Virus record (IMG/VR): IMGVR_UViG_3300017917_002782
Coordinates: 1 to 64,000 of that record
DNA length: 64,000 nt
Reading direction: 5' to 3' (one strand)
From: a virus
The stretch's first letter is position 1, and each line of letters starts with the position of its first letter. The notes below the pieces were generated by a model that did no database searches, was not told the DNA's origin, and worked only from the letters and a program-made list of their open reading frames with translations. Shown here one piece after another: positions 108-11,705 of the stretch. The position numbers and the translations under genes were made by a program.

Positions 108-123
108 TAAGACAAATATAATA

Positions 124-513
124 TTATTTTGTGTACTTATCATAAAACACTTCCATTCGTTCCATTACAACATCCAAACTCCAACCACTTGTGTCTTGGT
201 CGTTCCAATGAAAGTACCCCATTTGTATTTTCTCAATACTATTAGGGATTGACTTGTCGTGTACGAACTCGGGTAGTCCACCATTACCCATATCCTTGTG
301 GTAGTTACAACGATACTCAATTACAATATCTTTACCATTGAACTTTTTGGTGTAGGTTACTTTTTGACCTTTACCTTTTCGTACCCAACCATGTTCGGAC
401 ATAAATTCATCCATTTGGTTATTGACTTGGATTTTTGTTTGGGATAACACTAATTCCCTTTCTGATTCTTGTTTCTCTAAGAAATCATAATACTGTTTGA
501 TTGTACTATACAT
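124..513 (-). CDS. Hypothetical protein, 129 aa
   Basis: Start chosen at MYSTIKQYYDFLEKQ because its ATG follows the leader AACATT used by most neighbours and lies just downstream of the promoter at 538-567; the 18 extra codons in the longer reading frame overlap that promoter. Charged and soluble with no membrane segment. The C-terminal half is rich in aromatic residues (YRCNYHKD, GYFHWNDQD). Family not recognised. It ends one gene-unit that starts after the dyad at 641-695. Confidence 0.75.
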   Translation of the reverse strand: MYSTIKQYYDFLEKQESERELVLSQTKIQVNNQMDEFMSEHGWVRKGKGQKVTYTKKFNGKDIVIEYRCNYHKDMGNGGLPEFVHDKSIPNSIEKIQMGYFHWNDQDTSGWSLDVVMERMEVFYDKYTK

Positions 514-537
514 AATGTTTATTTGATTTATCGGATA

Positions 538-567
538 CAAAGATATAACAAAAAAAGAATTATACAA
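538..567 (-). promoter_or_regulatory. Bacteroidetes-type promoter
   Basis: -7 box TATCTTTG and -33 TTG (in TTGTATAATTC) with 19 bp between them. Drives the 124-513 gene. Confidence 0.85.
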
Positions 568-640
568 GAACTTTTTTATTTTTTTTTCACTTGAAAATTC
601 CCGATTGGATATATCCTATCCCAGTTTTGGTCTGGGCCGA

Positions 641-695
641 TTTAGTCTGGAGTGTCATACAATGTTCCAGACTAACCGAAGGTTCCAGACTAAAT
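641..695. repeat. Intergenic dyad element 1
   Basis: TTTAGTCTGGA at 641 faces TCCAGACTAAA at 684; a third copy (TCCAGACTAA) lies between them at 666. Sits between the terminator of the 794-1372 gene and the promoter of the next gene, the same place as all its relatives. Confidence 0.85.
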
Positions 696-743
696 GTTGA
701 TCCCGGATACGATCTGAGTTCTTCAGTATCAACATCCATAAAC

Positions 744-772
744 AAAAAACCCCCGACTTTCGCCGAGGGTTA
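744..772 (-). terminator. Rho-independent terminator of the 794-1372 gene
   Basis: On the minus strand CCCTCGGCGAAAGTCGGGGG is followed by six T. The same hairpin sequence recurs after several genes in the first 11 kb. Confidence 0.88.
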
Positions 773-793
773 ATTGTGTTAAACCTATAATCA

Positions 794-1372
794 CTATGAA
801 ACAGTTTCTTCTATATACGAACCGACAATACTTTCAGCTTCTGTCATACAATATTCCTCACCATAAAATCCCCAACAACTATCCACAAAGTTTTCGTGTT
901 CGTGTCCTTCACTACAAGTAGTTACTTCATAAATTTCATAACCATAAACATCACCTCTCAAATATTGGTCATAGGTTTGAACTTCACCTTCCAATACTTT
1001 GGTTACTTTCTCAATCACCTCTTTGGTAATTCTTTTCACACCATATTCTTTTCTTACCTGTTCTTTGGTAACATAAGTAAAACCAACACAACCACTATCC
1101 CAACGACAACTAAAACCACTTGTGTTCATTGTTATTCCGCTGTGGTCATAAAGGTACAAAGGTAATGATACACAAATTTCTTTACTCTTTAGAAATTCTC
1201 GAGCTTCTTCCCTTGAAAAATCGTGTTTGTCACCCAAGTTATAACGAGAATGAAAACATACCATTGTTCCCAAGTTATCGTCTTCACGAGGACTAAACGG
1301 ATTTTCATCCTGAATGATTTTAATTCTGTACTTTTTGTTGTCCTTAACAACATCTTTTGTTTCTATTGTCAT
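794..1372 (-). CDS. Hypothetical protein, 192 aa
   Basis: Soluble protein starting MTIETKDVVKDNKKYRIKI. Contains a Cys pair (GFSCRWDSGCVGF, about residues 87-97) and a Glu-rich C-terminal half. Family not recognised; resembles small phage proteins of the 'early' accessory type. It ends in TAG immediately followed by in-frame TGA, so amber readthrough would add only one residue. Own promoter at 1395-1424 and own terminator at 744-772. Confidence 0.8.
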   Translation of the reverse strand: MTIETKDVVKDNKKYRIKIIQDENPFSPREDDNLGTMVCFHSRYNLGDKHDFSREEAREFLKSKEICVSLPLYLYDHSGITMNTSGFSCRWDSGCVGFTYVTKEQVRKEYGVKRITKEVIEKVTKVLEGEVQTYDQYLRGDVYGYEIYEVTTCSEGHEHENFVDSCWGFYGEEYCMTEAESIVGSYIEETVS

Positions 1373-1394
1373 AATGTTTTTTATTTAACGAGTA

Positions 1395-1424
1395 CAAAGA
1401 TATAACACTTTTTTATTTATACAA
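1395..1424 (-). promoter_or_regulatory. Bacteroidetes-type promoter
   Basis: -7 TATCTTTG, 19-bp spacer, -33 TTG. Drives 794-1372; the -33 end abuts the stop codon of the 1428-1646 gene. Confidence 0.83.
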
Positions 1425-1427
1425 ACA

Positions 1428-1646
1428 TTATTTACAATTTTTTTGTAAGAATTTTAAAGTTGTGTTCAACTCTTCCTTATCACAACACACCGCCACTTGT
1501 CTATTCATTGGTATCCAAAAAAATCTGTGGTTTCTCACAATTACATACCCCAAACAAAGTTTACCCTCATACCAATAAACTTGTTTATAGTATGTGTAGT
1601 TTAATTCTTCAAACCCACGTTTAATAAAATCAATAAATTTTTTCAT
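1428..1646 (-). CDS. Hypothetical protein, 72 aa
   Basis: Small basic protein beginning MKKFIDFIKRGFEELNY, with aromatic/basic core and two cysteines (VAVCCDKEEL). No family recognised. ATG preceded by the common AACATT leader and promoter 1669-1698; transcription can run on into 794-1372, since no terminator lies between. Confidence 0.75.
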   Translation of the reverse strand: MKKFIDFIKRGFEELNYTYYKQVYWYEGKLCLGYVIVRNHRFFWIPMNRQVAVCCDKEELNTTLKFLQKNCK

Positions 1647-1668
1647 AATGTTTTTTATTTAACGAGTA

Positions 1669-1698
1669 CAAAGATATAACAAAAATTCTATTATACAA
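1669..1698 (-). promoter_or_regulatory. Bacteroidetes-type promoter
   Basis: TATCTTTG -7 box, 19 bp, TTGTATAA -33. Drives 1428-1646. Confidence 0.83.
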
Positions 1699-1743
1699 GA
1701 AATATTTTATTTTTTTTTCACCGGTACTGTTCCACCTGTCGGA

Positions 1744-1950
1744 TTTTGTCTGGAATATTCCCCAGACTAAATCTTGATCTGTCAACCAGATCGATCTGGT
1801 GAAAAACCAGATCGATCTGGTGAAAAACCAGAATTCATCTGGTTATTGCTATTTTAATAATCTATTGATTTTTAAGTATCTAAGTTTTTCCAGACTAAAT
1901 CTTGATCTGTCAACCAGATCGATCTGGTGAAAAACCAGAATTCATCTGGT
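1744..1950. repeat. Dyad element 2 with CCAGATCGATCTGG palindromes and a direct duplication
   Basis: TTTTGTCTGGA (1744) faces CCAGACTAAAT (1762). A block from CCAGACTAAAT through palindromes CCAGATCGATCTGG and CCAGAATTCATCTGG, spaced by GAAAAA, occurs at 1762-1841 and again at about 1890-1950; the first copy carries one extra palindrome unit. Lies between the terminator at 1953-1984 and the promoter at 1669. Confidence 0.85.
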
Positions 1951-1952
1951 AT

Positions 1953-1984
1953 AAAAAAACCCCCACCATTTCTGATGAGGGTTT
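1953..1984 (-). terminator. Terminator of the DUF932-like gene
   Basis: Minus strand CCCTCATCAGAAATGGTGGGGG followed by a run of T. Confidence 0.8.
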
Positions 1985-2017
1985 AACCTGTCGCCAATCG
2001 GTTGTTACACCAATGTC

Positions 2018-2875
2018 TTACACCATTTCAACCATACGATTGAAGATTAAACGTTCACGATTACCATAGGTACTGAACATTTTATTTTCTTCATTCTTGG
2101 TTGAATCACCTCTATTCATTGAATGAGTTGTCCACTTGGTTACACCACTAAACAATCCCCAAAGGTTATCACCTTTACTTTGAAGTTCACCATTAAGGTC
2201 AATTTCAAAACGAGATAGTTTGTTACGAGTAACACTTGAAAGACTATCAACCTTATTAAGGTCAACATCTTTCTCTATGTCAAACAAGATACGTGAAACC
2301 CAATCTTGGTCTTTCTCACCAATACGAATGTCGGAAAGTTTTTGAATGTTTTGGAACAATTCTTTTTCCTCTTGTAGTACATACTCCAAACTTCTACAAA
2401 TATCATCAATTCTCATTGACATATTTTTGGTGTGTCTAACCTTTGTTTCTAAGTTACGGAACGCCGCGAAAAAGGTATTCATACAACTGATAGTAATGTT
2501 ACTAGGTCCAAATGCGAGTGAGGTTGAACCATCAAATGAGTTCACACCAGTAATGTACCCTTCAAGTTTGTCATTACCCAATCTAAAATCACTTGACTTT
2601 AATTGAATAAACACTTTCTCACCATCACCGAATGAACCACCACGATGAATAGGTAAACCAACTTGTTGTGAAACTTTATCCAAAAGTTCAATAAGCTGAT
2701 GATTTTGATAAGGTTGATACCCTTTACCATGAATTGATAACACTCTGTTGTTGTCATCTCTAACAAGGGCTTTCTTATCACTAATGATAATACCTGAAGC
2801 TGTTTGTACTTCTTCTTCTCTTACTGTCCAATTCAAACCCGTTTGATTTAGGACTTCATTAATTCTGTCTGTCAT
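2018..2875 (-). CDS. DUF932 / phage-plasmid-like protein (TIGR03299 type)
   Basis: 285 aa. The N-terminal pattern (AxxxWxVxxxxVQ, SDKKALVRDDNNRVLSIHGK, GYQPYQNHQLIELLD) and the later GGSFGDGEKVFIQLK and SxNxFDGSTSLAFG-like motifs match the DUF932 family found in phages and plasmids. Molecular activity of the family is not established; often near replication or recombination genes. Own promoter (-7 TATATTTG) and own terminator, monocistronic. Family assignment from memory of the motif pattern; quite sure. Confidence 0.85.
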   Translation of the reverse strand: MTDRINEVLNQTGLNWTVREEEVQTASGIIISDKKALVRDDNNRVLSIHGKGYQPYQNHQLIELLDKVSQQVGLPIHRGGSFGDGEKVFIQLKSSDFRLGNDKLEGYITGVNSFDGSTSLAFGPSNITISCMNTFFAAFRNLETKVRHTKNMSMRIDDICRSLEYVLQEEKELFQNIQKLSDIRIGEKDQDWVSRILFDIEKDVDLNKVDSLSSVTRNKLSRFEIDLNGELQSKGDNLWGLFSGVTKWTTHSMNRGDSTKNEENKMFSTYGNRERLIFNRMVEMV

Positions 2876-2892
2876 ATTGTTTAATTATGGTA

Positions 2893-2922
2893 CAAATATA
2901 AATCTATTTTGAATATAACCAA
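2893..2922 (-). promoter_or_regulatory. Bacteroidetes-type promoter
   Basis: -7 TATATTTG, 19 bp, -33 TTG. Drives the DUF932-like gene. Confidence 0.75.
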
Positions 2923-2977
2923 AATAAATTTATTTTTTTTTTCTTGAGGATGACGGTGTCGCACTCCGGGTGCTTCA

Positions 2978-3017
2978 TTTAGTCTGGAGTGTCATACAGA
3001 TATGTTCCAGACTAAAT
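2978..3017. repeat. Intergenic dyad element 3
   Basis: TTTAGTCTGGA at 2978 and TCCAGACTAAAT at 3006 with GTGTCATACAGATATGT between. Confidence 0.85.
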
Positions 3018-3052
3018 CACGAGCTGTCACCAATGCTGAGGATTTCTTTGAC

Positions 3053-3083
3053 AAAAAAAACCCCCGACTTTCGCCGAGGGTTA
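3053..3083 (-). terminator. Terminator after the 3116-3490 gene
   Basis: Same CCCTCGGCGAAAGTCGGGGG hairpin plus T run on the minus strand as at 744-772. Confidence 0.88.
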
Positions 3084-3115
3084 TTGGTTGGTAAAGCAGG
3101 AAACCAATCAATATC

Positions 3116-3490
3116 TTATGTTGTGAAGTATGGATGTATTACTTCATTATCAGCTTCGACCATTCTCTTAACGTGTTCAACAGCCGACTTATCTTCGGGG
3201 TCATAAATGAAGTCCACGTTACTTGAAGCGATTACAAACTGTCCATGTGTAATACCCCAAAAATAATAACGAACCGTATCATTAATATCTACGTTGTTTA
3301 AAGCTTTTTCACAAACCTCTTGAAGTTCGGGAAACAACTTTACATTACCGGTAATTGAAGACTTAATCGCCAACTTCATACTACCTTTTTCAAACTCATC
3401 AGCTACTTTGTTTTCACCGATGTTTCTCAACCCTTGAACAAAGATTGATTTGTAACTTCCCGAAGGAGCTTTTGGAAATGGATTATTCAT
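3116..3490 (-). CDS. Hypothetical protein, 124 aa
   Basis: Start chosen at MNNPFPKAPSGSYKSIF, preceded by AACATT; the longer frame overlaps the upstream gene. Soluble, acidic, with no motif I recognise. Lies directly downstream of 3495-3767 (4 bases apart), so the two form an operon served by the promoter at 3791-3820 and the terminator at 3053-3083. Confidence 0.75.
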   Translation of the reverse strand: MNNPFPKAPSGSYKSIFVQGLRNIGENKVADEFEKGSMKLAIKSSITGNVKLFPELQEVCEKALNNVDINDTVRYYFWGITHGQFVIASSNVDFIYDPEDKSAVEHVKRMVEADNEVIHPYFTT

Positions 3491-3494
3491 AATG

Positions 3495-3767
3495 TTAATT
3501 TTCAATGTTTCTAAAAAAATCTTTATCACCTTTTGTAATAACCAAAGACACCTTGTTATTTTTTGGGTTGACTTGGTACACGTTCAAAACCTCATAACCA
3601 TAAAACCTTTTTAAATCACTTTTAGAGTAATCTTTAGTGTGTTCTATGGTATCTGTTGGATTTTTCCTTAAATGGTCTATAATCTCATTTTTGATAGTGT
3701 TACGGTCAAACTTGTCAAAGGTCTTAACTAACATATCTTTGTTTTGACTGAATAAATGATGTGACAT
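3495..3767 (-). CDS. Hypothetical protein, 90 aa
   Basis: Basic soluble protein, MSHHLFSQNKDMLVKTFDKF, first gene of a two-gene operon. The C-terminal part (VYQVNPKNNKVSLVITKGDK) could form a small beta sheet. Family not recognised. Promoter at 3791-3820. Confidence 0.75.
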   Translation of the reverse strand: MSHHLFSQNKDMLVKTFDKFDRNTIKNEIIDHLRKNPTDTIEHTKDYSKSDLKRFYGYEVLNVYQVNPKNNKVSLVITKGDKDFFRNIEN

Positions 3768-3790
3768 AATGTTTTTGATTTAACGTGGTA

Positions 3791-3820
3791 CAAAGATATA
3801 ACAAAAAAAGAATTATACAA
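3791..3820 (-). promoter_or_regulatory. Bacteroidetes-type promoter
   Basis: TATCTTTG -7, 19 bp, TTGTATAATTC -33. Drives the 3767-3116 operon. Confidence 0.85.
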
Positions 3821-3825
3821 GAACT

Positions 3826-4011
3826 TTATTCAACAAAATTAAAATATTTTGTTAACAAGTGTTTCTCAACTCGTTTTTCCACATAATCTTTCGGGTATTC
3901 CCAACCGATATTGAACCTATCGTTAACACCTTGTTCCTCGAATGCGTGTACACTTTTTACACAACGATAAAAAGGTTTTTGTTTGTTTGATACAAATGTG
4001 TGTAAACTCAT
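3826..4011 (-). CDS. Hypothetical protein, 61 aa
   Basis: Small basic protein MSLHTFVSNKQKPFYRCVKSV. Starts 7 bases after the stop of 4019-4252, so it is the second gene of that operon. Family not recognised. Its stop lies just before the next promoter; no separate terminator is seen. Confidence 0.7.
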   Translation of the reverse strand: MSLHTFVSNKQKPFYRCVKSVHAFEEQGVNDRFNIGWEYPKDYVEKRVEKHLLTKYFNFVE

Positions 4012-4018
4012 AATGTTT

Positions 4019-4252
4019 TTATTTTGTTTCTACCCTAATAACAAATAATTCATCTGACATTTCGGATTTATCCACCATATCCCTCACTTTCATTGCGGTT
4101 TGAATATGGTTATTATTACCAAACACCTCAATAATATATTTTGCTTTACCTTGTTTTTTCCCGTTAGGTAAAAAATACTCCCTTGTTGGTTCGGTAGTGT
4201 TACGAACTTTGTTGTCGTTGGTTGACACGTAAAAATTTTCTGTTGTTGCCAT
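4019..4252 (-). CDS. Hypothetical protein, 77 aa
   Basis: MATTENFYVSTNDNKVRN start with AACATT leader. Contains a predicted beta-alpha-beta pattern (KAKYIIEVFGNNNHIQTAMKV). Family not recognised. First gene of the operon with 3826-4011; promoter at 4276-4305. Confidence 0.75.
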   Translation of the reverse strand: MATTENFYVSTNDNKVRNTTEPTREYFLPNGKKQGKAKYIIEVFGNNNHIQTAMKVRDMVDKSEMSDELFVIRVETK

Positions 4253-4275
4253 AATGTTTTTGAATTAACGTGGTA

Positions 4276-4305
4276 CAAAGATAAAACAATTTTTCTTTTA
4301 TACAA
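4276..4305 (-). promoter_or_regulatory. Bacteroidetes-type promoter
   Basis: TATCTTTG -7, 19 bp, TTGTATAA -33. Confidence 0.84.
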
Positions 4306-4360
4306 GGATTATTTTTATTTTTTTTTCACCTGAAGATCGCACCAGAATTCCCATCTCACT

Positions 4361-4388
4361 TTTTGTCTGGAACATTCCAGACTAAATT
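4361..4388. repeat. Intergenic dyad element 4 (shortest)
   Basis: TTTTGTCTGGAA immediately faces TTCCAGACTAAAT with only a few bases between: the minimal form of the element. Confidence 0.82.
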
Positions 4389-4433
4389 TCGATCATCCCC
4401 GATCTGAAGTACCGGTGGAAAACATCCTGAAAA

Positions 4434-4463
4434 CAAAAAACCCCCGACTTTCGTCAAGGGGTT
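4434..4463 (-). terminator. Terminator of the 4489-5172 gene
   Basis: Minus strand CCCCTTGACGAAAGTCGGGGG followed by T run; a variant of the common hairpin. Confidence 0.85.
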
Positions 4464-4488
4464 AGTTGTCGTTAAACATTATGACAAA

Positions 4489-5172
4489 TTATAAAACAGA
4501 TAGAAAAGCCGGACTTGGGTATCTTACATTCTCTTTTTCTTGTTCCCTCATTGATATACCCTCAATATCTCGGTAAAACTCATCGGGATATATTTCGTAA
4601 TCTCTACAAAACAATTGAAGTAACTCATAGTATGGTTTGTAGTACACCAACTCTTTAAAACCCATTGATGCCCATTTGTTGGCAATATTTTCACTTACAC
4701 CTCTTGATTGTAGGTAATGTGTTTTATCTCTAAAGTCTTTCAATCCATATAACCCTACCGAACATACCGCATGGTAACCCTCTTCCTCCATTATCTCTGT
4801 AAGCTTTTCTTTACTGATAATCTTGTATTCATCGGGGTATAGTCTAATAAGCTGACCATCAATATAGGTCTGTACCACATCACCCACATAATTCTCATTC
4901 CAACTCTTACTGTCAGCTTCGATTTTCTCAATCTCTCTATTGATGTATTCCTCTTTATCTTCTTTTCTGAAAAAACCAATTGGTTTACTTTCATTAAAAA
5001 CCAAATCCATTTCTTCCTTGGCGGTTTCGGTTAACTCTTTACGGATAACTGGTTGTTCCGAATAAGCCCACACAATTGTGAATTTCTGTATCGGGTTTCT
5101 TAACTCCACGAAGCTGAAAGGTCGCATAATCATTATGAACCCCTCTCTAAATTTATTTTTCGCGTTTATCAT
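4489..5172 (-). CDS. Hypothetical protein, 227 aa
   Basis: Soluble, acidic protein with many Lys/Glu pairs; N-terminus MINAKNKFREGFIMIMRPFS. The middle carries SRGVSENIANKWASMGFKE, which looks like a helix-hairpin. No family recognised. Monocistronic: promoter 5196-5225 and terminator 4434-4463. Confidence 0.78.
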   Translation of the reverse strand: MINAKNKFREGFIMIMRPFSFVELRNPIQKFTIVWAYSEQPVIRKELTETAKEEMDLVFNESKPIGFFRKEDKEEYINREIEKIEADSKSWNENYVGDVVQTYIDGQLIRLYPDEYKIISKEKLTEIMEEEGYHAVCSVGLYGLKDFRDKTHYLQSRGVSENIANKWASMGFKELVYYKPYYELLQLFCRDYEIYPDEFYRDIEGISMREQEKENVRYPSPAFLSVL

Positions 5173-5195
5173 GTGTTTATTGTTTTAACGTAGTA

Positions 5196-5225
5196 CAAAG
5201 GTAAAACAAAAATTCATTTATACAA
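5196..5225 (-). promoter_or_regulatory. Bacteroidetes-type promoter
   Basis: -7 TACCTTTG (one base off the common TATCTTTG), 19 bp, TTGTATAA -33. Confidence 0.8.
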
Positions 5226-5235
5226 GGATTATTTT

Positions 5236-5270
5236 CAAAAAAAGAAAGGGGATACAACTTTCGTCATACC
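5236..5270 (-). terminator. Terminator of the 5295-5843 gene
   Basis: Minus strand GGGGTATGACGAAAGTTGTA then TCCCC forms a stem-loop, followed by TTTCTTTTTTT. Sequence differs from the common hairpin, and no TCTGGA dyad lies here. Confidence 0.75.
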
Positions 5271-5294
5271 CCCTACTCTTTCGTTAAATCAAAT

Positions 5295-5843
5295 TTATAC
5301 AGACAAGTACAAACGAGAATGGTTGTAATACGCTACGGGATTACCTTCAGCAAGTTCCCCATAGGTATCTTTTATAATGTTATACATCACTTCTTGTGGT
5401 TCACCGATACATTCCGATAACATTTCAACAAACCCATAGTTACTTTCATCAACTATGTCTTGTGTCGTCCCAGGTAAACCACAATAGTAAGCCTCACCTA
5501 CTTCGGATATGAACATCCCACTAAAAAATCCTTTTAGTTTGTAACGATTAACAAATTCATCAGCGTTACACCAAATGAATACTGTGTTATTCTTTTTATC
5601 TAATTCCTCAACCATTGTTTCGTCAATGATATAACCACCATTTGCTTGGAATTGTCCGACACTAAATAATCCAGAAGGACTACCATGTCCCATGAACATA
5701 CATCTGTCGTGTTGTGAAATGAGTTCTTTAATTTCTTGTTTGGTTTTACCACCAGTTACCAATGTAACATTTTCCATATTCTTATAGATAATATCTAAGA
5801 ATTGGGTGGACTTGTCTTTTGGATGAATAATTAATGTTTTCAT
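5295..5843 (-). CDS. Possible caspase-like (clan CD) cysteine protease
   Basis: 182 aa. A beta strand followed by RCMFMGHGSPSGLFS (residues about 47-61) resembles the catalytic His-Gly-x-Gly of caspase/CHAT-type peptidases, and KNNTVFIWCNADEFVN (about 85-100) resembles the strand ending in the catalytic Cys. N-terminus MKTLIIHPKDKSTQFLDIIY fits a Rossmann-like start. No signal peptide, so it would act in the cytoplasm. Own promoter (5866-5896) and terminator. The call rests on the His/Cys motif order only; it could be an inactive or unrelated alpha/beta protein. Confidence 0.55.
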   Translation of the reverse strand: MKTLIIHPKDKSTQFLDIIYKNMENVTLVTGGKTKQEIKELISQHDRCMFMGHGSPSGLFSVGQFQANGGYIIDETMVEELDKKNNTVFIWCNADEFVNRYKLKGFFSGMFISEVGEAYYCGLPGTTQDIVDESNYGFVEMLSECIGEPQEVMYNIIKDTYGELAEGNPVAYYNHSRLYLSV

Positions 5844-5865
5844 GTTTGTATTGATTTAACGAGTA

Positions 5866-5896
5866 CAAAGATAACGCAAAAAAATTATAATACAAG
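5866..5896 (-). promoter_or_regulatory. Bacteroidetes-type promoter
   Basis: TATCTTTG -7 and TTGTATTA -33, spacer about 20 bp. Confidence 0.82.
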
Positions 5897-5937
5897 TTTT
5901 TTTTTATTTTTTTCCCGGGGGACCTGAGATGTTACTT

Positions 5938-5989
5938 TTAGTCTGGAGTGTAATACAACATTGGTCGGTTATAAATTCCAGACTAAATG
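5938..5989. repeat. Intergenic dyad element 5
   Basis: TTTAGTCTGGAGTGTAATAC ... TTCCAGACTAAATG. Right flank contains ACCGGGA then TCTGAG, shared with several other copies. Confidence 0.85.
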
Positions 5990-6036
5990 TTGGTACCGGG
6001 AACATCTCCGATACGTCTGAGTGGAAGGGTGTGGTC

Positions 6037-6068
6037 ATAAAAAAACCCCACCGATTTGGTGAGGTCTT
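6037..6068 (-). terminator. Terminator of the 6085-6390 gene
   Basis: Minus strand CCTCACCAAATCGGTGGGG followed by seven T. Confidence 0.83.
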
Positions 6069-6084
6069 TTGTTGTGTGTGGGTA

Positions 6085-6390
6085 TTACATAAACCTCACA
6101 CTCGGAATATCGTTCAACTCATGGTCGTCAAACTCACAATTATCGGGTTCGTTGAAGTAACGGAAGTGTACGTTCATTGTTCCGTTCTCAAACCACCAAA
6201 TTCTAACTTGGGTACGATGTTCTGACACCATAAACCCCTCAATCTTTCTTAACTCACCGATTAACTTGTTTACATCATCTTCGGTTACGTTGTCCAACAT
6301 TTCTTCGTTGTTCACAATAAAGTCATCAATAAATTCACAATCTCCGTCATAGTCGATTGAAAAGTCAATGTACATTGTTTCTTTACTCAT
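6085..6390 (-). CDS. Hypothetical acidic protein, 101 aa
   Basis: MSKETMYIDFSIDYDGDCEF; strongly acidic (DFIVNNEEMLDNVTEDDVN) and beta-rich toward the end. No family recognised; acidic small proteins of this kind are sometimes nucleic-acid mimics, but nothing here proves that. Promoter 6435-6464. Confidence 0.72.
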   Translation of the reverse strand: MSKETMYIDFSIDYDGDCEFIDDFIVNNEEMLDNVTEDDVNKLIGELRKIEGFMVSEHRTQVRIWWFENGTMNVHFRYFNEPDNCEFDDHELNDIPSVRFM

Positions 6391-6434
6391 AATTTTTGTT
6401 CTTTATTAGTTATTAATTAATTAATTTAACGATA

Positions 6435-6464
6435 CAAAGATATAACTTTTTTTCTTTAATACAA
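6435..6464 (-). promoter_or_regulatory. Bacteroidetes-type promoter with upstream TTATCCACA box
   Basis: TATCTTTG -7, 19 bp, TTGTATTAAAG -33; TGTGGATAA (6472-6480 on the plus strand as TTATCCACA) lies a few bases upstream of the -33. Confidence 0.85.
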
Positions 6465-6471
6465 GAGAAAG

Positions 6472-6497
6472 TTATCCACACTTTGAATGTGGATAAC
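6472..6497. repeat. Inverted pair of TTATCCACA boxes
   Basis: TTATCCACA at 6472-6480 and its reverse complement at 6489-6497. Lies between the 6511-6705 gene stop and the promoter at 6435; may also serve as a small hairpin/terminator. Confidence 0.8.
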
Positions 6498-6510
6498 CTC
6501 AATGTCGGTC

Positions 6511-6705
6511 TTAATGAAGATACTCATTAAGTATCTGTGTAAACTTCTCCCATTGGTCGAATGGTACTTGATTACCCTCTTCGTCCGTGATATTCACGAT
6601 TGACGATAGGTCGGTTGTGTCGGGAATGAAAATGTCAAAATACGTTCCGTCCGTTTCAACTCGGAAACATTTCATTGGTACTTGGGTTACTGTTACGTTT
6701 TTCAT
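6511..6705 (-). CDS. Hypothetical protein, 64 aa
   Basis: MKNVTVTQVPMKCFRVETDG; predicted beta-rich small protein with an FDIFIPDTTDLSSIVNIT segment. Family not recognised. Promoter 6732-6761; the TTATCCACA dyad follows the stop. Confidence 0.7.
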   Translation of the reverse strand: MKNVTVTQVPMKCFRVETDGTYFDIFIPDTTDLSSIVNITDEEGNQVPFDQWEKFTQILNEYLH

Positions 6706-6731
6706 ATTAGTATAAATTAAATTTAACGATA

Positions 6732-6761
6732 CAAAGATATAACTTTTTTTCTTTAATACAA
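6732..6761 (-). promoter_or_regulatory. Bacteroidetes-type promoter with upstream TTATCCACA dyad
   Basis: TATCTTTG -7, 19 bp, TTGTATTAAAG -33. Upstream TTATCCACA (6769-6777) faces TGTGGATAA (6784-6792). Confidence 0.85.
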
Positions 6762-6817
6762 GTGAAAGTTATCCACATTTTTTTGTGGATAACCCCGGAC
6801 GGGAAGGTTCAGGTGGA

Positions 6818-6877
6818 TTTAGTCTGGAATGTAATACCCACTACTGATGTAATACCTCGGCGGGTTCCAGACTAAAT
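6818..6877. repeat. Intergenic dyad element 6
   Basis: TTTAGTCTGGAATGTAATAC, then ACTGATGTAATACC, then TTCCAGACTAAATG: outer dyad plus two inner GTAATAC copies. Confidence 0.87.
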
Positions 6878-6920
6878 GTTGTTACCGGGACTGTTCTGAG
6901 GACTTCAGAAACTCTTGGAC

Positions 6921-6952
6921 AAAAAAAATCCCCACCATTTCTGATGAGGATA
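6921..6952 (-). terminator. Terminator of the 6959-7207 gene
   Basis: Minus strand ATCCTCATCAGAAATGGTGG then GGAT and a run of T. Confidence 0.82.
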
Positions 6953-6958
6953 TTTTTA

Positions 6959-7207
6959 CTACTCTTCCACTTCGATAGTGTCACATACGTGGTCAGTGAT
7001 GTTGTCTATGAATTGGTTTACCAAGTCTTGATTGATGTCAATCTTACTTGTTTTATCCCATAGACCACCAACAAATTCATCGGGTAACTCCTTTACCACT
7101 TCGTTGAGGAACTCCGTACCACTTAAATCGTAGTTAATCATGTGTACAATTTTTTGAGAAACCATGTCCTTGACAATTTCTCTAATCTTAATCTGTGTGT
7201 CTGTCAT
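6959..7207 (-). CDS. Hypothetical acidic helical protein, 82 aa
   Basis: MTDTQIKIREIVKDMVSQKI; mostly helical and acidic, ending DHVCDTIEVEE. Family not recognised. Promoter 7229-7258, terminator 6921-6952. Confidence 0.72.
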   Translation of the reverse strand: MTDTQIKIREIVKDMVSQKIVHMINYDLSGTEFLNEVVKELPDEFVGGLWDKTSKIDINQDLVNQFIDNITDHVCDTIEVEE

Positions 7208-7228
7208 AATAATTCAAATAACGAAGTA

Positions 7229-7258
7229 CAAAGATATAATGTTTTTTTATTTATACAA
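7229..7258 (-). promoter_or_regulatory. Bacteroidetes-type promoter
   Basis: TATCTTTG -7, 19 bp, TTGTATAA -33, TTATCCACA box at 7275-7283 upstream. Confidence 0.84.
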
Positions 7259-7323
7259 GTATTTTTTTATGAAGTTATCCACAAGTAGTGAACACCCTGA
7301 CGATCCAGGACTCACCTGTCGGA

Positions 7324-7382
7324 TTTTGTCTGGAATGTATTACCCACACCTGATGTAATACTACACATATTCCAGACTAAAT
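7324..7382. repeat. Intergenic dyad element 7
   Basis: TTTTGTCTGGAATGTATTAC ... CTGATGTAATAC ... TTCCAGACTAAATG. The inner GTATTAC/GTAATAC pair is itself inverted, and the flanks AGGACTCACC and GGATGGTCCT extend the outer dyad, giving arms of about 30 nt. Confidence 0.87.
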
Positions 7383-7420
7383 GTCGATTCCGGGATGGTC
7401 CTGAGGAATTCTTCGGAAAC

Positions 7421-7447
7421 AAAAAACCCCCGACTTTCGCCGAGGGT
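7421..7447 (-). terminator. Terminator of the 8039-7456 operon
   Basis: Common CCCTCGGCGAAAGTCGGGGG hairpin plus T run on the minus strand. Confidence 0.87.
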
Positions 7448-7455
7448 CAATTGTG

Positions 7456-7668
7456 TTAAACCAACTTATACTCTAATATCTCTGTATCATCATCTTCGTG
7501 TAGTACATAATCTTTGGTTAAACCTCGTACCGAAACGGAATTGGTAATTTCACCATGTGAGTTCACCCACACTTGAATATAAAAGGGTTCTTGATACCAA
7601 CCATTCTTTTTAGCGATTTCACCCCAACCCTTTCTGTGAAATTCAAATTTTTCTTTATTAATATCCAT
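7456..7668 (-). CDS. Hypothetical protein, 70 aa
   Basis: MDINKEKFEFHRKGWGEIAK; small soluble protein with a WVNSHGEITNSVSVRG beta region. Its start overlaps the stop of 7658-7855 by 11 bases: third gene of a three-gene operon. Family not recognised. Confidence 0.72.
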   Translation of the reverse strand: MDINKEKFEFHRKGWGEIAKKNGWYQEPFYIQVWVNSHGEITNSVSVRGLTKDYVLHEDDDTEILEYKLV

Positions 7669-7855
7669 TTCTTTTTTTCTCTTTTGTTAGTTCACGAATA
7701 TCGGTAACGAAATGATAAAATAAAACAAATACCATAAACAAACCAAAAAAGAAAACTCCGATTTGGTTATCTGTTGGAATATCCCATTTAAAGGATGTCC
7801 AACCACTAAACACTATTGACCCAATAATGAATAGGTAACGTAGGAATGTAAACAT
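7658..7855 (-). CDS. Small membrane protein with two transmembrane segments, 65 aa
   Basis: Start taken at MFTFLRYLFIIGSIVFSGWT, whose ATG lies next to the stop of the upstream gene; the longer frame overlaps that gene. Two hydrophobic segments (residues about 4-20 and 32-50) and a basic tail (KEKKRNGY). Middle gene of an operon with 7857-8039 and 7456-7668. Role unknown. Confidence 0.7.
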   Translation of the reverse strand: MFTFLRYLFIIGSIVFSGWTSFKWDIPTDNQIGVFFFGLFMVFVLFYHFVTDIRELTKEKKRNGY

Positions 7856-7856
7856 A

Positions 7857-8039
7857 TTAGTCAAGTATTTTATATTCATCTTCACCAACAATCAAACCAA
7901 GACTTCTACCATTATCCCACTTCACGTTAATAACACCACCACCAACGTGGTAAATAGTTCCTTCTGTACCCGTTTCAATAGGGTTCGGGTCATCATTCAT
8001 ACTGATTAATTTAACCCTTTTTCCAATTAGTTCGTTCAT
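7857..8039 (-). CDS. Hypothetical SH3-like beta-barrel protein, 60 aa
   Basis: MNELIGKRVKLISMNDDPNP, then a TGTEGTIYHVGGGVINVKWD pattern typical of small SH3-like barrels (xGTxGxVxxV...VxWDNG). Such domains bind nucleic acid or protein; no specific family can be named. First gene of the operon, promoter 8061-8090. Confidence 0.7.
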   Translation of the reverse strand: MNELIGKRVKLISMNDDPNPIETGTEGTIYHVGGGVINVKWDNGRSLGLIVGEDEYKILD

Positions 8040-8060
8040 AATGTTTTAAATTTAACAATA

Positions 8061-8090
8061 CAAAGATATAACAAAAAAACAATTATACAA
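8061..8090 (-). promoter_or_regulatory. Bacteroidetes-type promoter
   Basis: TATCTTTG -7, 19 bp, TTGTATAATTG -33; TTATCCACA at 8098-8106 directly upstream. Confidence 0.85.
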
Positions 8091-8106
8091 GTAAAAGTTA
8101 TCCACA

Positions 8107-8277
8107 TTATTCATCCCCTTTTAAACACTCCTCACAGGCGTTACAACTAAAACAATACGAACAACCACAACCCTTATCTTCTTCACGATTTCCACAATCA
8201 CAACAATTGTACATACTACCACAATCGTATTGTTTACCATTTCGGTCTGTACCTAAGTAACTTGATTTTTCACACAT
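8107..8277 (-). CDS. Cysteine-rich small protein, 56 aa (probable zinc binder)
   Basis: Reading the minus strand gives MCEKSSYLGTDRNGKQ followed by a C-terminal half with 12 further Cys in CxxC/CC patterns (YNCCDCGN, GCGCSYCFSCNACEECL). This density suggests one or two zinc sites. ATG lies downstream of the promoter at 8301-8330, as for the neighbours. Its stop overlaps the TTATCCACA box of the next promoter. Function unknown. Confidence 0.75.
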   Translation of the reverse strand: MCEKSSYLGTDRNGKQYDCGSMYNCCDCGNREEDKGCGCSYCFSCNACEECLKGDE

Positions 8278-8300
8278 AACTTTATTGATTTAACGTAGTA

Positions 8301-8330
8301 CAAAGATATAACAAATTTTTAATTATACAA
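8301..8330 (-). promoter_or_regulatory. Bacteroidetes-type promoter
   Basis: TATCTTTG -7, 19 bp, TTGTATAATT -33. Drives the Cys-rich gene. Confidence 0.85.
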
Positions 8331-8364
8331 ATTTTTTTTTCACCCGTGTTCACCGGATGCAACT

Positions 8365-8421
8365 ATTAGTCTGGAGTGTACTACAACACCTGATAGTGTA
8401 ATACAGATTTCCAGACTAAAT
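8365..8421. repeat. Intergenic dyad element 8
   Basis: TATTAGTCTGGAGTGTACTAC, then CTGATAGTGTAATAC, then TTCCAGACTAAAT. Confidence 0.86.
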
Positions 8422-8464
8422 TCGATCCCCGGTACTGTTCGAGTTCCCTGACGAAACGTATGGA

Positions 8465-8498
8465 CAAAAAAAATCCCCACCGATTTGGTGAGGACTTT
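8465..8498 (-). terminator. Terminator of the 8516-8920 gene
   Basis: Minus strand AGTCCTCACCAAATCGGTGG then GGATT and a run of T. Confidence 0.82.
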
Positions 8499-8515
8499 CA
8501 TTAGGTCAGTTGAGG

Positions 8516-8920
8516 TTAGTTAGGACACATACCCATTTGAATTAGTGTGTCGGTAACTGATTGGGGTTTGGTGTCAACATCAATCTCATATATCTCATCG
8601 TAACCCGTAACTTCACTTGAAAATCTTAAATGTAACTTACTCTCATCCTCATCAAAAATCATTTCACATCCACAAAGAATCTCACATTCTTCTTCAACTA
8701 TTAGGTGATTGGTAATAAATGAAACCGCGAGAATACCCTTGATTGGGTCATTGAGCGGTAAATCAAAAGGAGTAGTCATTCCACCCCTTTCCCCTCTTTG
8801 AACTAAAAAATGGATTTTTCTACCGATAGAGAATACATCAATAGTACCCTCACTAACCATTTGGTTGAACGAATTTTTTGTACCTTGTACGAAAATTTCA
8901 ATTTTTTCTTCTGTTGTCAT
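8516..8920 (-). CDS. Hypothetical protein, 134 aa
   Basis: Start at MTTEEKIEIFVQGTKNSF, with AACATT leader. Alpha/beta protein with a central Cys pair (CEILCGCEMIF). Family not recognised. Promoter 8941-8970, terminator 8465-8498. Confidence 0.75.
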   Translation of the reverse strand: MTTEEKIEIFVQGTKNSFNQMVSEGTIDVFSIGRKIHFLVQRGERGGMTTPFDLPLNDPIKGILAVSFITNHLIVEEECEILCGCEMIFDEDESKLHLRFSSEVTGYDEIYEIDVDTKPQSVTDTLIQMGMCPN

Positions 8921-8940
8921 AATGTTTAAATTTAACAATA

Positions 8941-8970
8941 CAAAGATATAACAAAAATAAATTAATACAA
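8941..8970 (-). promoter_or_regulatory. Bacteroidetes-type promoter
   Basis: TATCTTTG -7, 19 bp, TTGTATTAATT -33; TTATCAACA/TTATCCACA pair at 8978-8996 upstream. Confidence 0.85.
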
Positions 8971-9035
8971 GAGAAAGTTATCAACACTTATCCACACAGA
9001 CGAAGAACAAGAATGGACGGGAAGGTTCAGGGGGA

Positions 9036-9091
9036 TTTAGTCTGGAATGTAGTACAACAACTGATAATGTAATACGATGTTCCAGACAAAA
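9036..9091. repeat. Intergenic dyad element 9
   Basis: TTTAGTCTGGAATGTAGTAC, CTGATAATGTAATACG, TTCCAGACAAAAT. Confidence 0.86.
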
Positions 9092-9142
9092 TCGGCATCG
9101 ATCAGGGATGGTAGGGTTCGAGTGGTACCTGAGGAAGTAACA

Positions 9143-9177
9143 TAAAAAAACCCCCGATGGAAGTTCCACCGAGGGTC
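9143..9177 (-). terminator. Terminator of the 9225-9542 gene
   Basis: Minus strand CCCTCGGTGGAACTTCCATC then GGGGG and a T run. Confidence 0.85.
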
Positions 9178-9224
9178 GTGTAAGTCAAAATTAAACCATG
9201 AATATAATAAACAAAAAAAATCCT

Positions 9225-9542
9225 CTATTTTGAAAAAATCACATCAATATCTTCGGGTGATAGAATTGGTGTTTGGTCTAAATCCGTATCATCCCCAACA
9301 TGGACGTAAACGTCAAACGAACCCTCAAATTCGTTATCAACAACTGATACTACTACAACATCTTCATCCCAATTGTAAACCAACTCCTTTATCTCTTTGA
9401 ATAAGAAGTCGATTATCTTTTGACAATCTTCTTTGGTTTCAGTTCCTTTTTCTGATACGAAGTCTACAACTTCTAAGTTACGATTAACACTAATACTAAG
9501 GTCAGTACGTAAGTTTGTGTTTGTTCTAATGTGGTTTGTCAT
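9225..9542 (-). CDS. Hypothetical acidic protein, 105 aa
   Basis: MTNHIRTNTNLRTDLSISVN; alternating beta strands (DEDVVVVSVVDNEFEGSFDV) and acidic C-terminus. Family not recognised. Promoter 9571-9600. Confidence 0.75.
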   Translation of the reverse strand: MTNHIRTNTNLRTDLSISVNRNLEVVDFVSEKGTETKEDCQKIIDFLFKEIKELVYNWDEDVVVVSVVDNEFEGSFDVYVHVGDDTDLDQTPILSPEDIDVIFSK

Positions 9543-9570
9543 AATGTTTTTTTTATTGATTTAACGAGTA

Positions 9571-9600
9571 CAAAGATATAACCTTTTTAAATTAATACAA
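9571..9600 (-). promoter_or_regulatory. Bacteroidetes-type promoter
   Basis: TATCTTTG -7, 19 bp, TTGTATTAATT -33; TTATCCACA at 9617-9625 upstream. Confidence 0.85.
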
Positions 9601-9674
9601 ATTTTTTTTTATGAAGTTATCCACAAGTAATCAACACAGACGAAGAACAAGAAGGGACGGGAAGACACAGGAAA

Positions 9675-9732
9675 TTTTAGTCTGGTGCGTACTACAACAA
9701 CTGATAGTGTAATACGATGTTCCAGACAAAAT
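9675..9732. repeat. Intergenic dyad element 10
   Basis: TTTTAGTCTGGTGCGTACTAC, CTGATAGTGTAATACG, TTCCAGACAAAATG. Its right flank, read in reverse complement (ACTCACCTGTC), equals the left flank of element 7, as if the element can occur in either orientation. Confidence 0.86.
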
Positions 9733-9781
9733 GTTAATCCGGACGACAGGTGAGTTCTTCAAGGACGAGTGGTATGAAAAC

Positions 9782-9811
9782 AAAAAACCCCCGATATTTC
9801 TACCGAGGGTT
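9782..9811 (-). terminator. Terminator of the 9835-10161 gene
   Basis: Minus strand CCCTCGGTAGAAATATCGGG then GG and a T run. Confidence 0.86.
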
Positions 9812-9834
9812 AGATTATATGAAACAGAAAAAGA

Positions 9835-10161
9835 CTAATCCTTGTATGCTTTTATCCTTTCAACATTGTTGTCAATGATTTCAACAAGGTCATCAAAGTA
9901 AACCATGTCAAACGATTTAACCACGTTCCCATGTGTACTCATTAGGTGTACGTTGTAAGTGTCAGTCCAATCTAATGTAATAAGAACATAACCTTTGTGG
10001 TGGTGTCCGTTTACCTTAAACATTAACCCTTTACCAAACACGTTGGTTAGTTTATTAACCCCCCAACTCCAATAAACTGAACCACTACTTTTAAGAAGTA
10101 ATAAAGTTTCGTTTACGTTGAACTCCATTTTTAAAAGTTCCTCAATTTTTGAAATGTCCAT
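9835..10161 (-). CDS. Hypothetical protein, 108 aa
   Basis: MDISKIEELLKMEFNVNETL; helical N-terminus then a beta-rich centre with GHHHKGYVLITLDWTDTYN. Family not recognised. Promoter 10185-10214, terminator 9782-9811. Confidence 0.75.
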   Translation of the reverse strand: MDISKIEELLKMEFNVNETLLLLKSSGSVYWSWGVNKLTNVFGKGLMFKVNGHHHKGYVLITLDWTDTYNVHLMSTHGNVVKSFDMVYFDDLVEIIDNNVERIKAYKD

Positions 10162-10184
10162 AGTTTTTATTGATTTAACGAATA

Positions 10185-10214
10185 CAAAGATATAACAATT
10201 TTAAATTAATACAA
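10185..10214 (-). promoter_or_regulatory. Bacteroidetes-type promoter
   Basis: TATCTTTG -7, 19 bp, TTGTATTAATT -33; TTATCAACA and TTATCCACA at 10222-10240 upstream. Confidence 0.85.
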
Positions 10215-10281
10215 GTAAAAGTTATCAACACTTATCCACAACACAGACCACCCTGAAGATGATCCAGGACTCACCAGATCT

Positions 10282-10322
10282 ATTTTAGTCTGGAACCCAT
10301 CACACATATTCCAGACTAAAAT
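10282..10322. repeat. Intergenic dyad element 11
   Basis: TTTTAGTCTGGAAC ... ATTCCAGACTAAAA with short centre. Confidence 0.84.
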
Positions 10323-10364
10323 TTATCACCGGCAGATCACGGGTGAGTACCTGATGGAGTAACA

Positions 10365-10394
10365 TAAAAAAACCCCCGACTTCCGCCGAGGGTT
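10365..10394 (-). terminator. Terminator of the 10451-10765 gene
   Basis: Minus strand CCCTCGGCGGAAGTCGGGGG followed by seven T. Confidence 0.87.
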
Positions 10395-10450
10395 TATTAA
10401 ATCAAATAGTGTTCCTTTATCAATCAAGTCCCACCAAACCCCTTAACTTC

Positions 10451-10765
10451 TTATTGTGAAAGAAACCCCAATAGTTCATGTCTATTCACACCACACGAAT
10501 AAGTTAAACCACTATCCGTTTTTAAAACCAATCTAAGATAACCCAAGTGTCTAACATCACCACTATCAAAATGGTATGTAACACCTTTAGAGGTTGTGAA
10601 TTGTCCTTTAATACAATAATCACCACATTCAAACTTCAAGTCAACACATCCACCACTTTTGAATATGTTTCTTAACCTTGTACGTTCCTTTTCAAAGAAT
10701 CTTACTTTAAACTCTCTGAAATCTTCAAAGGTTAATTTTCTACCTATATTTTTACTTACTAACAT
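10451..10765 (-). CDS. Hypothetical protein, 104 aa
   Basis: MLVSKNIGRKLTFEDFREFK; basic, with three Cys (GGCVDLKFECGDYCIKG, residues about 39-55) that could bind metal. Family not recognised. Last gene of the minus-strand early block; a divergent plus-strand gene begins 357 bp away. Confidence 0.75.
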   Translation of the reverse strand: MLVSKNIGRKLTFEDFREFKVRFFEKERTRLRNIFKSGGCVDLKFECGDYCIKGQFTTSKGVTYHFDSGDVRHLGYLRLVLKTDSGLTYSCGVNRHELLGFLSQ

Positions 10766-10790
10766 ACCATTTGTTTTTTAAATGTGGATA

Positions 10791-10820
10791 CAAAGATATA
10801 ACAAAAATAAATTAATACAA
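10791..10820 (-). promoter_or_regulatory. Bacteroidetes-type promoter
   Basis: TATCTTTG -7, 19 bp, TTGTATTAATT -33; TTATCAACA at 10828-10836 upstream. Confidence 0.85.
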
Positions 10821-10874
10821 GTGAAAGTTATCAACAGATACGAAGAAGGGAAATTCACCGGAAGACGCCAGATA

Positions 10875-10988
10875 ATTTAGTCTGGAAATTTCTGTTTAAC
10901 CTTTTACACAAAAACTTAAACAAGGACTCCAGACAGATTTTTTTCAGGTCCACCGTACCAACGGGTTAGTATAAATTCCAGACTAAAT
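10875..10988. repeat. Intergenic dyad element 12 (double length)
   Basis: TTTAGTCTGGAA at 10877, a middle TCCAGACAGA at 10928 and TTCCAGACTAAAT at 10977: three half-sites over about 113 bp. It fills the gap between the divergent promoters at 10791 and 11065; nothing else is seen in this 356-bp intergenic stretch apart from the TTATC boxes. Confidence 0.82.
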
Positions 10989-11064
10989 ATAAATCCGGAC
11001 GGTCGGGTTCGGGTGGTCGGAGTTATTAACAAATTCAGTGTGGATAACTTAATAAAAAAAATAC

Positions 11065-11094
11065 TTGTATAATTCAAAATTCGTTATATCTTTG
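11065..11094 (+). promoter_or_regulatory. Bacteroidetes-type promoter, plus strand
   Basis: TTGTATAATTC -33, 19 bp, TATCTTTG -7; TGTGGATAA at 11039-11047 upstream. The mirror image of the minus-strand promoters. Confidence 0.87.
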
Positions 11095-11121
11095 TACTCG
11101 TTAAATCAATAAAACAAAGTT

Positions 11122-11655
11122 ATGACAACAGAAAAAAAATCAGTAAAAATCAACAAGGTTGAACTTTTACAATTATTAGTAGGTATTGAAAAATCAACTT
11201 TCATTAACCTTGTTACTGAAACAAAGGTACGAATGAACAAAACAAACAATCCGTACTTTGATAAGGTAATCAAAAGAAACAAGTGTACATACCTTGTTGG
11301 TAATGACTACGAAAAAAGAGTAAACAACAACGAAGTAAAAGAGGGTTTAGAAGGGGATTTTAAATCAGAAGAAATGAAAGGTAAAAAACACATTAGTAAG
11401 TGTGTTTGTGTAGATACCAAAACAGAGAGTGTTCACTACTTAATGGTTGAAAGATTTGATGAAGTTACACCACAGAAAACAGAATACATTTTTGAGGGTA
11501 ACGGAATTGATAAACAACTTTTTGAAAGTTATATGACAAAGGTTTACGAAAGTAAGAAACAAGAACAAGATAGAAAAGTTATGGTAATAACCCCTAAACT
11601 TGATAGTATCAAAGAAATGAGTTTAGAGGGTACTCATTACATAGTTGAGGAATAA
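11122..11655 (+). CDS. Hypothetical protein, 177 aa
   Basis: MTTEKKSVKINKVELLQLLV; soluble, Lys/Glu-rich, with repeated VxTxTxSVHYLMVERF-like strands. The pattern 'xxxKINKxELLxLLVGIExSTFINLVTET' reads like a conserved phage early protein but I cannot name it. Promoter 11065-11094 and terminator 11678-11705 make it monocistronic. Confidence 0.8.
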   Translation: MTTEKKSVKINKVELLQLLVGIEKSTFINLVTETKVRMNKTNNPYFDKVIKRNKCTYLVGNDYEKRVNNNEVKEGLEGDFKSEEMKGKKHISKCVCVDTKTESVHYLMVERFDEVTPQKTEYIFEGNGIDKQLFESYMTKVYESKKQEQDRKVMVITPKLDSIKEMSLEGTHYIVEE

Positions 11656-11677
11656 AAGTGTCTTAAAACGAAAGAAA

Positions 11678-11705
11678 AAGGGGTACATTAGTTACCCCTT
11701 TTTTT
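11678..11705 (+). terminator. Terminator of the 11122-11655 gene
   Basis: AAGGGGTACATTAGTTACCCC followed by TTTTTTT. Confidence 0.88.

Follow-up and report, generated by a model that had tools for sequence, protein, structure and literature searches.

To our knowledge, little is known of how large phages turn off early genes that number in the dozens and have separate promoters. T4-like phages carry elements called PeSLs, at which module shuffling has reportedly been proposed, in work from 2010 and 2014. The stoperators and operators of cluster A mycobacteriophages are copies of one asymmetric 13-bp site used by the immunity repressor of temperate phages (PMC6550527, PMC9283540). Here we describe a family of intergenic inverted repeats (dyads) in a viral sequence, positions 1–64,000 of the 65,021-base record IMGVR_UViG_3300017917_002782 (the whole stretch analyzed, hereafter the window), and in its relatives. 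Computation established their layout, their confinement to one region of each genome, the conservation of their sequence rather than of a hairpin, the phasing of their half-sites, and selection on a short core motif. The dyads are probably composite control sites read by protein in the early region of large T4-like phages, where they would bring about a stoperator-like shut-off.

The dyads of the window are pairs of inverted copies of TTTWGTCTGGA. An earlier note on this DNA had counted at least 12 of them at 641–10988, and we found twelve intergenic regions with paired inverted half-sites there. The exact arm TTTAGTCTGGA has 18 copies in the 65,021-base record (8 forward and 10 reverse), all at 641–11764, as is every match with one mismatch; with up to two mismatches there are 42 matches in the whole record against 26.6 expected by chance, and the backward-read control of TTTAGTCTGGA has 0 copies. 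An inverted repeat follows 8 of 13 terminators in positions 1–12000 (1.4 in shuffled sequences) and at 0 of 9 in positions 12001–64000. The dyads had been said to lie always between a terminator and the next promoter, and 11 of the 12 do have the terminator of one minus-strand unit on one side and the next unit's promoter on the other, but dyad 12 is located between divergent promoters and the terminator–promoter gap at 5173–5294 has no dyad. The promoter boxes 3' of the dyads, as read from the sequence, have the form TAnnTTTG, which we take to be that of Bacteroidota promoters. Across five genomes, the left arm mostly starts 30–50 nt past the terminator T-run, and the -7 box is mostly 55–98 nt past the right arm. 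Many dyads enclose an octamer, GTATKACA (GTATTACA or GTATGACA), hereafter the core, which is common to all these phages and directed downstream. The dyads and a lone half-site are as follows.

641–694: dyad 1, half-sites at 641–651, 666–676 (degenerate) and 684–694; octamer GTATGACA at 660 (minus strand)
1744–1899: dyad 2, half-sites at 1744–1754 and 1761–1771; right arm and flank duplicated at 1889–1899
2978–3016: dyad 3, octamer GTATGACA at 2997 (minus strand)
4361–4386: dyad 4, short spacer, without octamer
5937–5987: dyad 5, octamer GTATTACA at 5956 (minus strand)
6818–6876: dyad 6, two octamers GTATTACA, at 6855 and 6837 (minus strand)
7324–7381: dyad 7, octamer GTATTACA at 7361 (minus strand), facing GTAATAC
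8365–8420: dyad 8, octamer GTATTACA at 8404 (minus strand)
9036–9091: dyad 9, octamer GTATTACA at 9075 (minus strand)
9676–9731: dyad 10, octamer GTATTACA at 9715 (minus strand)
10284–10320: dyad 11, without octamer
10876–10987: dyad 12, divergent promoters on either side; extra inner half-site near 10928–10939
11754–11764, plus strand: lone half-site directly 3' of the terminator of the plus-strand gene 11122–11655

The inner GTANTAC repeats that the earlier note had pointed out are present and proved to be the most informative part of the dyads, and the recurrence of flank sequences was borne out; its description of arms reaching about 30 nt holds only loosely, since in dyad 7 the extended arm is broken by GTATTAC opposite GTAATAC. 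The duplication of the right arm and flank of dyad 2 occupies 1769–1952 and includes repeated CCAGATCGATCTGG palindromes. Between dyad and promoter, just upstream of many early promoters of the window, lies TTATCMACA (TTATCCACA/TTATCAACA), presumably a DnaA-box-like sequence, with 14 of its 18 copies at 6472–11047 and 3.3 expected for the whole window.

No viral contig contained the exact window dyad, and megablast of window positions 1–12000 against phages gave no match, with records of the window's own genome possibly excluded in both searches. Relatives were recovered at the protein level, with genes of the dyad array as queries, and many of them have dyads at the same position with a different arm sequence: TTTTGTCTGG in G002, TTTTGTYTAG in G001, TTGTTTCGC in G010, TTGTTTGGC or TTGKTTGGC in G004–G008 and L012, TTNTGTGGC-like arms in G003, and TTCTGTGGC as a further form. 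Arms are alike within one genome and unlike between genomes. Absence from relatives, or random occurrence elsewhere, had been named beforehand as what would refute the family; the relatives instead carry dyads in the same place with other arms. The dyads are limited to one region of 9–35 kb per genome, and the arms were almost exclusively in one region in all 10 records examined; in G001, dyads of the general pattern occupy 153.9–181.0 kb of 251 kb. When viral and genome contigs were scanned for the general pattern, the only repeated copies among the matches listed were in L093, L109, and L170 (and in other pieces of the L170 contig), a Clostridiaceae contig (L238) had a two-copy match, and single matches were taken as chance. 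L093 (IMGVR_UViG_3300014208_000051), a contig of 55 kb, has six dyads with the arm TTTTGTTTGGCTC within 5.8 kb, with 5 antisense cores as this strand reads. A different palindrome family, GGAAAACTC-N3-GAGTTTTCC, is found in L054 (IMGVR_UViG_3300033407_000001), with about 13 copies in 20 kb, and in L058/L059.

We call the dyad region early because it consists of small genes with host-type promoters and because T4-type late motifs are mostly outside it: 20 of the 22 sites in the window for TATAAATA, which we take to be the T4 late promoter motif, lie beyond 12 kb. We likewise regard the gene content of these phages as T4-like, judging by its signatures, and a sigma-region-2 match was obtained (E 1.7e-4).

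The arms behave as binding half-sites. In a permutation test on 203 loosely called dyads from 11 genomes, the mismatch between a dyad's own left and right arms was similar to that of randomly re-paired arms in all 11 genomes (P 0.12 to 1.0). Because a dyad's own arms pair no better than re-paired ones, we read each arm as one copy of a sequence-specific half-site, inverted relative to its partner. The flanks showed no significant mutual pairing, the lowest P being 0.051 (G003). Early coding DNA has somewhat more arm heptamers than expected (31 against 12.2), and outside the early region they are not avoided (44 against 44.5). Phasing was analyzed with the 101 clean dyads kept from the 203, whose half-site distances cluster near 17–18, 27, and 38 bp. 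A period scan peaked at 10.25–10.5 bp, with a Rayleigh P of about 1e-5 on unique genome–distance pairs and of 2e-6 without G001. Phasing of about 10.5 bp is as expected if a protein holds both half-sites on one face of the helix.

The core is subject to opposite selection in two parts of the genome. Its heptamer lies within the spacer in sense orientation in 55 of the 101 clean dyads and in antisense orientation in 1. In ten records, the early regions (219 kb) contain 186 sense and 32 antisense core octamers, while outside them, in six of these records, 17 were found on both strands of 845 kb; the split of these counts into coding and intergenic sites depends on a crude open reading frame (ORF) caller and was not relied on. 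Coding sequences were compared with synonymous-codon shuffles of each gene, leaving aside the first 30 codons, ORFs under 90 amino acids, and antisense ORFs in early regions. GTATTACA occurs 31 times in early genes against 6.9 expected (about fivefold over) and 4 times in the rest against 25.1 (sixfold under), which places it second of 39,978 octamers by combined score, behind poly-A. Among the 22 leading octamers, enrichment and depletion come together only in GTATTACA, in words that overlap it or belong to its reverse complement, and in GTATGACA (18/4.8 early and 5/13.9 in the rest, observed/expected); GTAATACA gave 8/3.1 and 6/34.0. Octamers also lie in coding sequences of the window's dyad region.

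842–849, minus strand: octamer GTATGACA in coding sequence, within gene 794–1372 (minus strand)
3248–3255, minus strand: octamer GTATTACA in coding sequence, within gene 3116–3490 (minus strand)
5324–5331, minus strand: octamer GTATTACA in coding sequence, within gene 5295–5843 (minus strand)

Variants at positions 4 and 8 are avoided like the core, and nearly all variants at positions 1, 2, 3, 6, and 7 are close to expectation, with the exception of GTCTTACA (3/9.8 outside); the motif is therefore close to GTANTAC or GTATKAC. Outside the early region the two strands show similar avoidance, as would fit a signal carried by double-stranded DNA and not by RNA; an RNA-level signal such as mRNA cleavage is disfavored for the same reason. 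GTATGACA often overlaps the start codon of an early gene (GT-ATG-ACA) in G003, G007, G001, and G010, with 12 such cases in the ten records by the crude ORF caller.

With the motif fixed, three further genomes were held out as a test, in which orthologs of early genes were the main guide to the extent of the early regions; a single 20-kb locus per genome had already been looked at. The core occurred 18 times in their early coding DNA against 4.3 expected (P 6e-7) and 19 times in the rest against 42.3 (P 5e-5), with antisense counts of 10/1.5 and 6/14.4, respectively. Six control octamers were mostly near a ratio of 1, the furthest being GGATTACA (26/13.5 outside) and GTATTCCA (2/0.5 early). Two genomes without dyads, sampled in five stretches each, showed no bias (5/5.8 and 4/4.3). 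Among the examined loci from the protein searches, those of dyad phages have 3–26 sense cores and the others 0–4, so that the lowest dyad locus, L009 (3 sense and 2 antisense), falls within the non-dyad range.

Regulator sites were among the functions suggested in the earlier note, and this one is favored by half-sites that lack hairpin covariation, by helical phasing, by a fixed place upstream of promoters, and by selection on the core. A site lies ahead of almost every early gene block. We propose that each site would have two parts, a phage-specific pair of inverted half-sites and the shared directional core GTATKACA, and that one phage-encoded DNA-binding protein, or two, would bind core and arms. 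The protein would bridge the half-sites on one face of the helix about 55–98 bp upstream of each early promoter, and the further cores inside early genes would also be bound. Binding would most likely repress initiation and block elongation, shutting off the early region as a unit, and the cores may have been purged from the rest of the genome because binding there would harm later transcription. Both the binding and its effect on transcription we infer from sequence. A bolder form of the proposal, which we put forward tentatively, is a two-layer address code for the early region of a lytic-type phage group. The constant core, placed in early genes and spacers and removed from other parts of the genome, and the phage-specific paired half-sites, at the start of every early gene block, would both be read by a phage protein able to bridge, compact, and silence that entire region at a stroke, or else to segregate it. 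The switch for the early genes seems to be visible in sequence as a short core that selection favors in one part of the genome and disfavors in another; the half-sites, which drift as a set, predict a co-evolving binding protein; and the two together offer a sequence rule for marking the early regions of uncultured phages.

The best candidate for a core-binding factor, judged from sequence, is encoded outside the dyad array.

30250–30483, plus strand: putative binder, a 77-amino-acid Arc/CopG-like (ribbon-helix-helix, RHH) protein

It matched PHROG profiles for a CopG-like repressor (E 2.3e-6) and an Arc-like repressor (5.7e-4); the Pfam match of its G003 ortholog was below the cut-off. Its predicted DNA-contacting strand, placed by the general fold pattern, barely varies among five members, as would fit a core that stays constant. 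The protein was found in every core-positive genome tested (8 of 8) and in no core-negative one (0 of 10); the corresponding figures for a second small protein are 6 of 9 and 1 of 10. NikR is an example of an RHH protein, with the operator GTATGA-N16-TCATAC. The half-site GTATGA resembles the letters of the core and the candidate looks Arc/CopG-like; we take this resemblance as a lead only. A homing-endonuclease target was also considered and rejected: the endonuclease VII-like gene at 11970–13268 of the window is not a common factor, because it had a single match among nine relatives, with 19% coverage. Homing-endonuclease-like modular genes do occur in or beside the early region, namely this gene and an ORF at 568–2640 of L396 (G005) with what we take to be a GIY-YIG motif.

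Several observations weigh against the proposed control sites. The Rayleigh P falls to 0.0026 once neighboring or related distances are merged, and G001 alone shows no phasing, its distances forming one broad group of 16–25. No core is present in 46 of the 101 clean dyads, and a single protein may fail to account for both a constant core and divergent arms. That the dyad region is the early region is itself a deduction. As to the candidate protein, its co-occurrence with the core may reflect kinship, the core-negative genomes being distant, and other genes of the clade may share its distribution, so that the evidence for it is weak; its AlphaFold2 monomer model did not recover the RHH fold (pLDDT 68), Foldseek gave no match under E 3, and sequence search of the PDB did not recover the fold. 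The search for lysogeny genes, which did not extend to partition genes, gave none, and a classical immunity repressor is therefore unlikely.

Other explanations account for part of these data. The arms of 10–17 bp, perfect or nearly so, adjoin terminators, and could be read as a functional stem, in an attC-like folded site, an RNA-processing hairpin, or a backup terminator. We consider this hairpin or cruciform reading very improbable: own-arm pairing was not in significant excess in any of the 11 genomes, mismatches recur uncompensated at arm position 4 (in most dyads of L043, and in the window), the flanks are unpaired, and the loop ranges from 4 to about 100. The conservation of a hairpin over sequence that marks integron attC sites is not seen in the dyads, and the tyrosine integrase of integrons had no counterpart in 16 records; nor do the dyads show the GC stem with T-run of an intrinsic terminator, as no T-run follows the dyad and a separate terminator lies 5' in 11 of 12; the RNA hairpin in particular was dropped on the re-pairing test and the non-pairing flanks. 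A non-autonomous mobile repeat (MITE- or REP-like) that settled between genes by chance, another suggestion of the earlier note, would account for the many near-identical copies per genome and for identical inner parts at several places. It seems highly unlikely, because the copies lie within a single region and always on the same side of the terminator and promoter, the arms drift as a set in each genome, and the inner motif is selected inside genes too. Y1_Tnp, the REP/RAYT transposase, had no match above the cut-off in 10 records, only a weak one in an apparent GIY-YIG ORF, and nothing positive speaks for mobility.

Recombination is the reading that we rank second behind control sites, although we think it unlikely: the core would act as an oriented hot spot, either similar to chi or a target of a phage nuclease, and the dyads would be cassette boundaries. 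Early gene order is indeed scrambled with orientation kept (147 of 153). With genome pairs sharing fewer than four orthologs dropped, neighboring genes have stayed adjacent in 47 of 137 early cases and in 310 of 358 elsewhere in the genome, counts that exclude the close trio G004, G007, and G008 (103 of 200 and 334 of 395 with all pairs). Core enrichment coincides with plastic gene order and core avoidance with collinearity, and the left, inner, and right parts of the dyads are reassorted within a genome. Moreover, L024 has an extra promoter–gene–terminator cassette of about 930 bp compared with the near-identical L025, and the ends of the cassette fall exactly after GTATGACA in a dyad. A direct repeat of about 81 bp borders the cassette, however, and alone is enough for ordinary homologous recombination, and a comparison of gene order among relatives showed that adjacency breaks track neither dyads nor cores: adjacency was kept at 8 of 18 junctions with a dyad and 32 of 60 without (P 0.6), and the coefficient for a core between neighbors was 0.25 (95% interval -0.25 to 0.76, n=378). 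Phage_integrase (PF00589) was not found in 16 records, nor Resolvase (PF00239) in 10, some of the records in both sets being fragments, and helical phasing would not be expected of recombination sites. What stands of the hot-spot suggestion is thus the scrambled order and one cassette end at the inner motif.

Several features were noted elsewhere in these genomes. In rest-of-genome coding DNA of the ten records, synonymous shuffles predict far more copies of TAAATA-type words, of GGAGTTTT, and of several TCCAGA/GATCCA words than are observed; the scarcity of TAAATA-type words fits avoidance of late promoters. Octamers cluster in apparently non-coding stretches at switches of gene orientation in G010 (8.4–8.8 kb), G003 (172–173.4 kb), G001 (184.0–184.3 kb), and G007 (19.0–19.3 kb), in both orientations in the latter three, and these stretches are perhaps an origin or a genome-end region. 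In the window, ARAGORN predicted a tRNA with anticodon CTA (labeled Pyl) at 48390–48464, a possible amber suppressor; it is one of 28 clustered tRNAs that are accompanied by a tmRNA (43109–43528).

The sources reached by our literature search, in the parts available, gave no account of this motif or arrangement. The repeats of halovirus HF2 are likewise intergenic repeats conserved in a virus genus, at conserved genome positions, but they contain promoters themselves, whereas here the promoter is separate and downstream (PMC8707807). Like the PeSLs, the dyads belong to repeated intergenic units of promoter and terminator in a plastic region of T4-like phages, and the combination of an early promoter with a terminator stem-loop is present here; a PeSL consists of promoter plus stem-loop, whereas here a separate dyad and core lie between terminator and promoter, and PeSLs are linked to module shuffling, whereas here breakpoints do not track dyads or cores (PMC4503421). 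The cores resemble cluster A stoperators in being many short sites per genome, oriented with transcription and located both at and away from promoters. Stoperators are bound by a phage repressor that blocks elongation, to which the candidate RHH protein may correspond here. The stoperator consensus is particular to each phage, which here is true of the arms and not of the constant core; in addition, the present sites combine a conserved core with phage-specific inverted arms, are confined to the early region and are avoided elsewhere, and, unlike the temperate phages that carry stoperators, the records searched here (16 and 10) yielded no integrase or resolvase (PMC6550527, PMC9283540). Compared with both stoperators and PeSLs, what is new is the two-layer design, arms that are phased and differ from phage to phage, and a core that selection favors in the early region and disfavors elsewhere.

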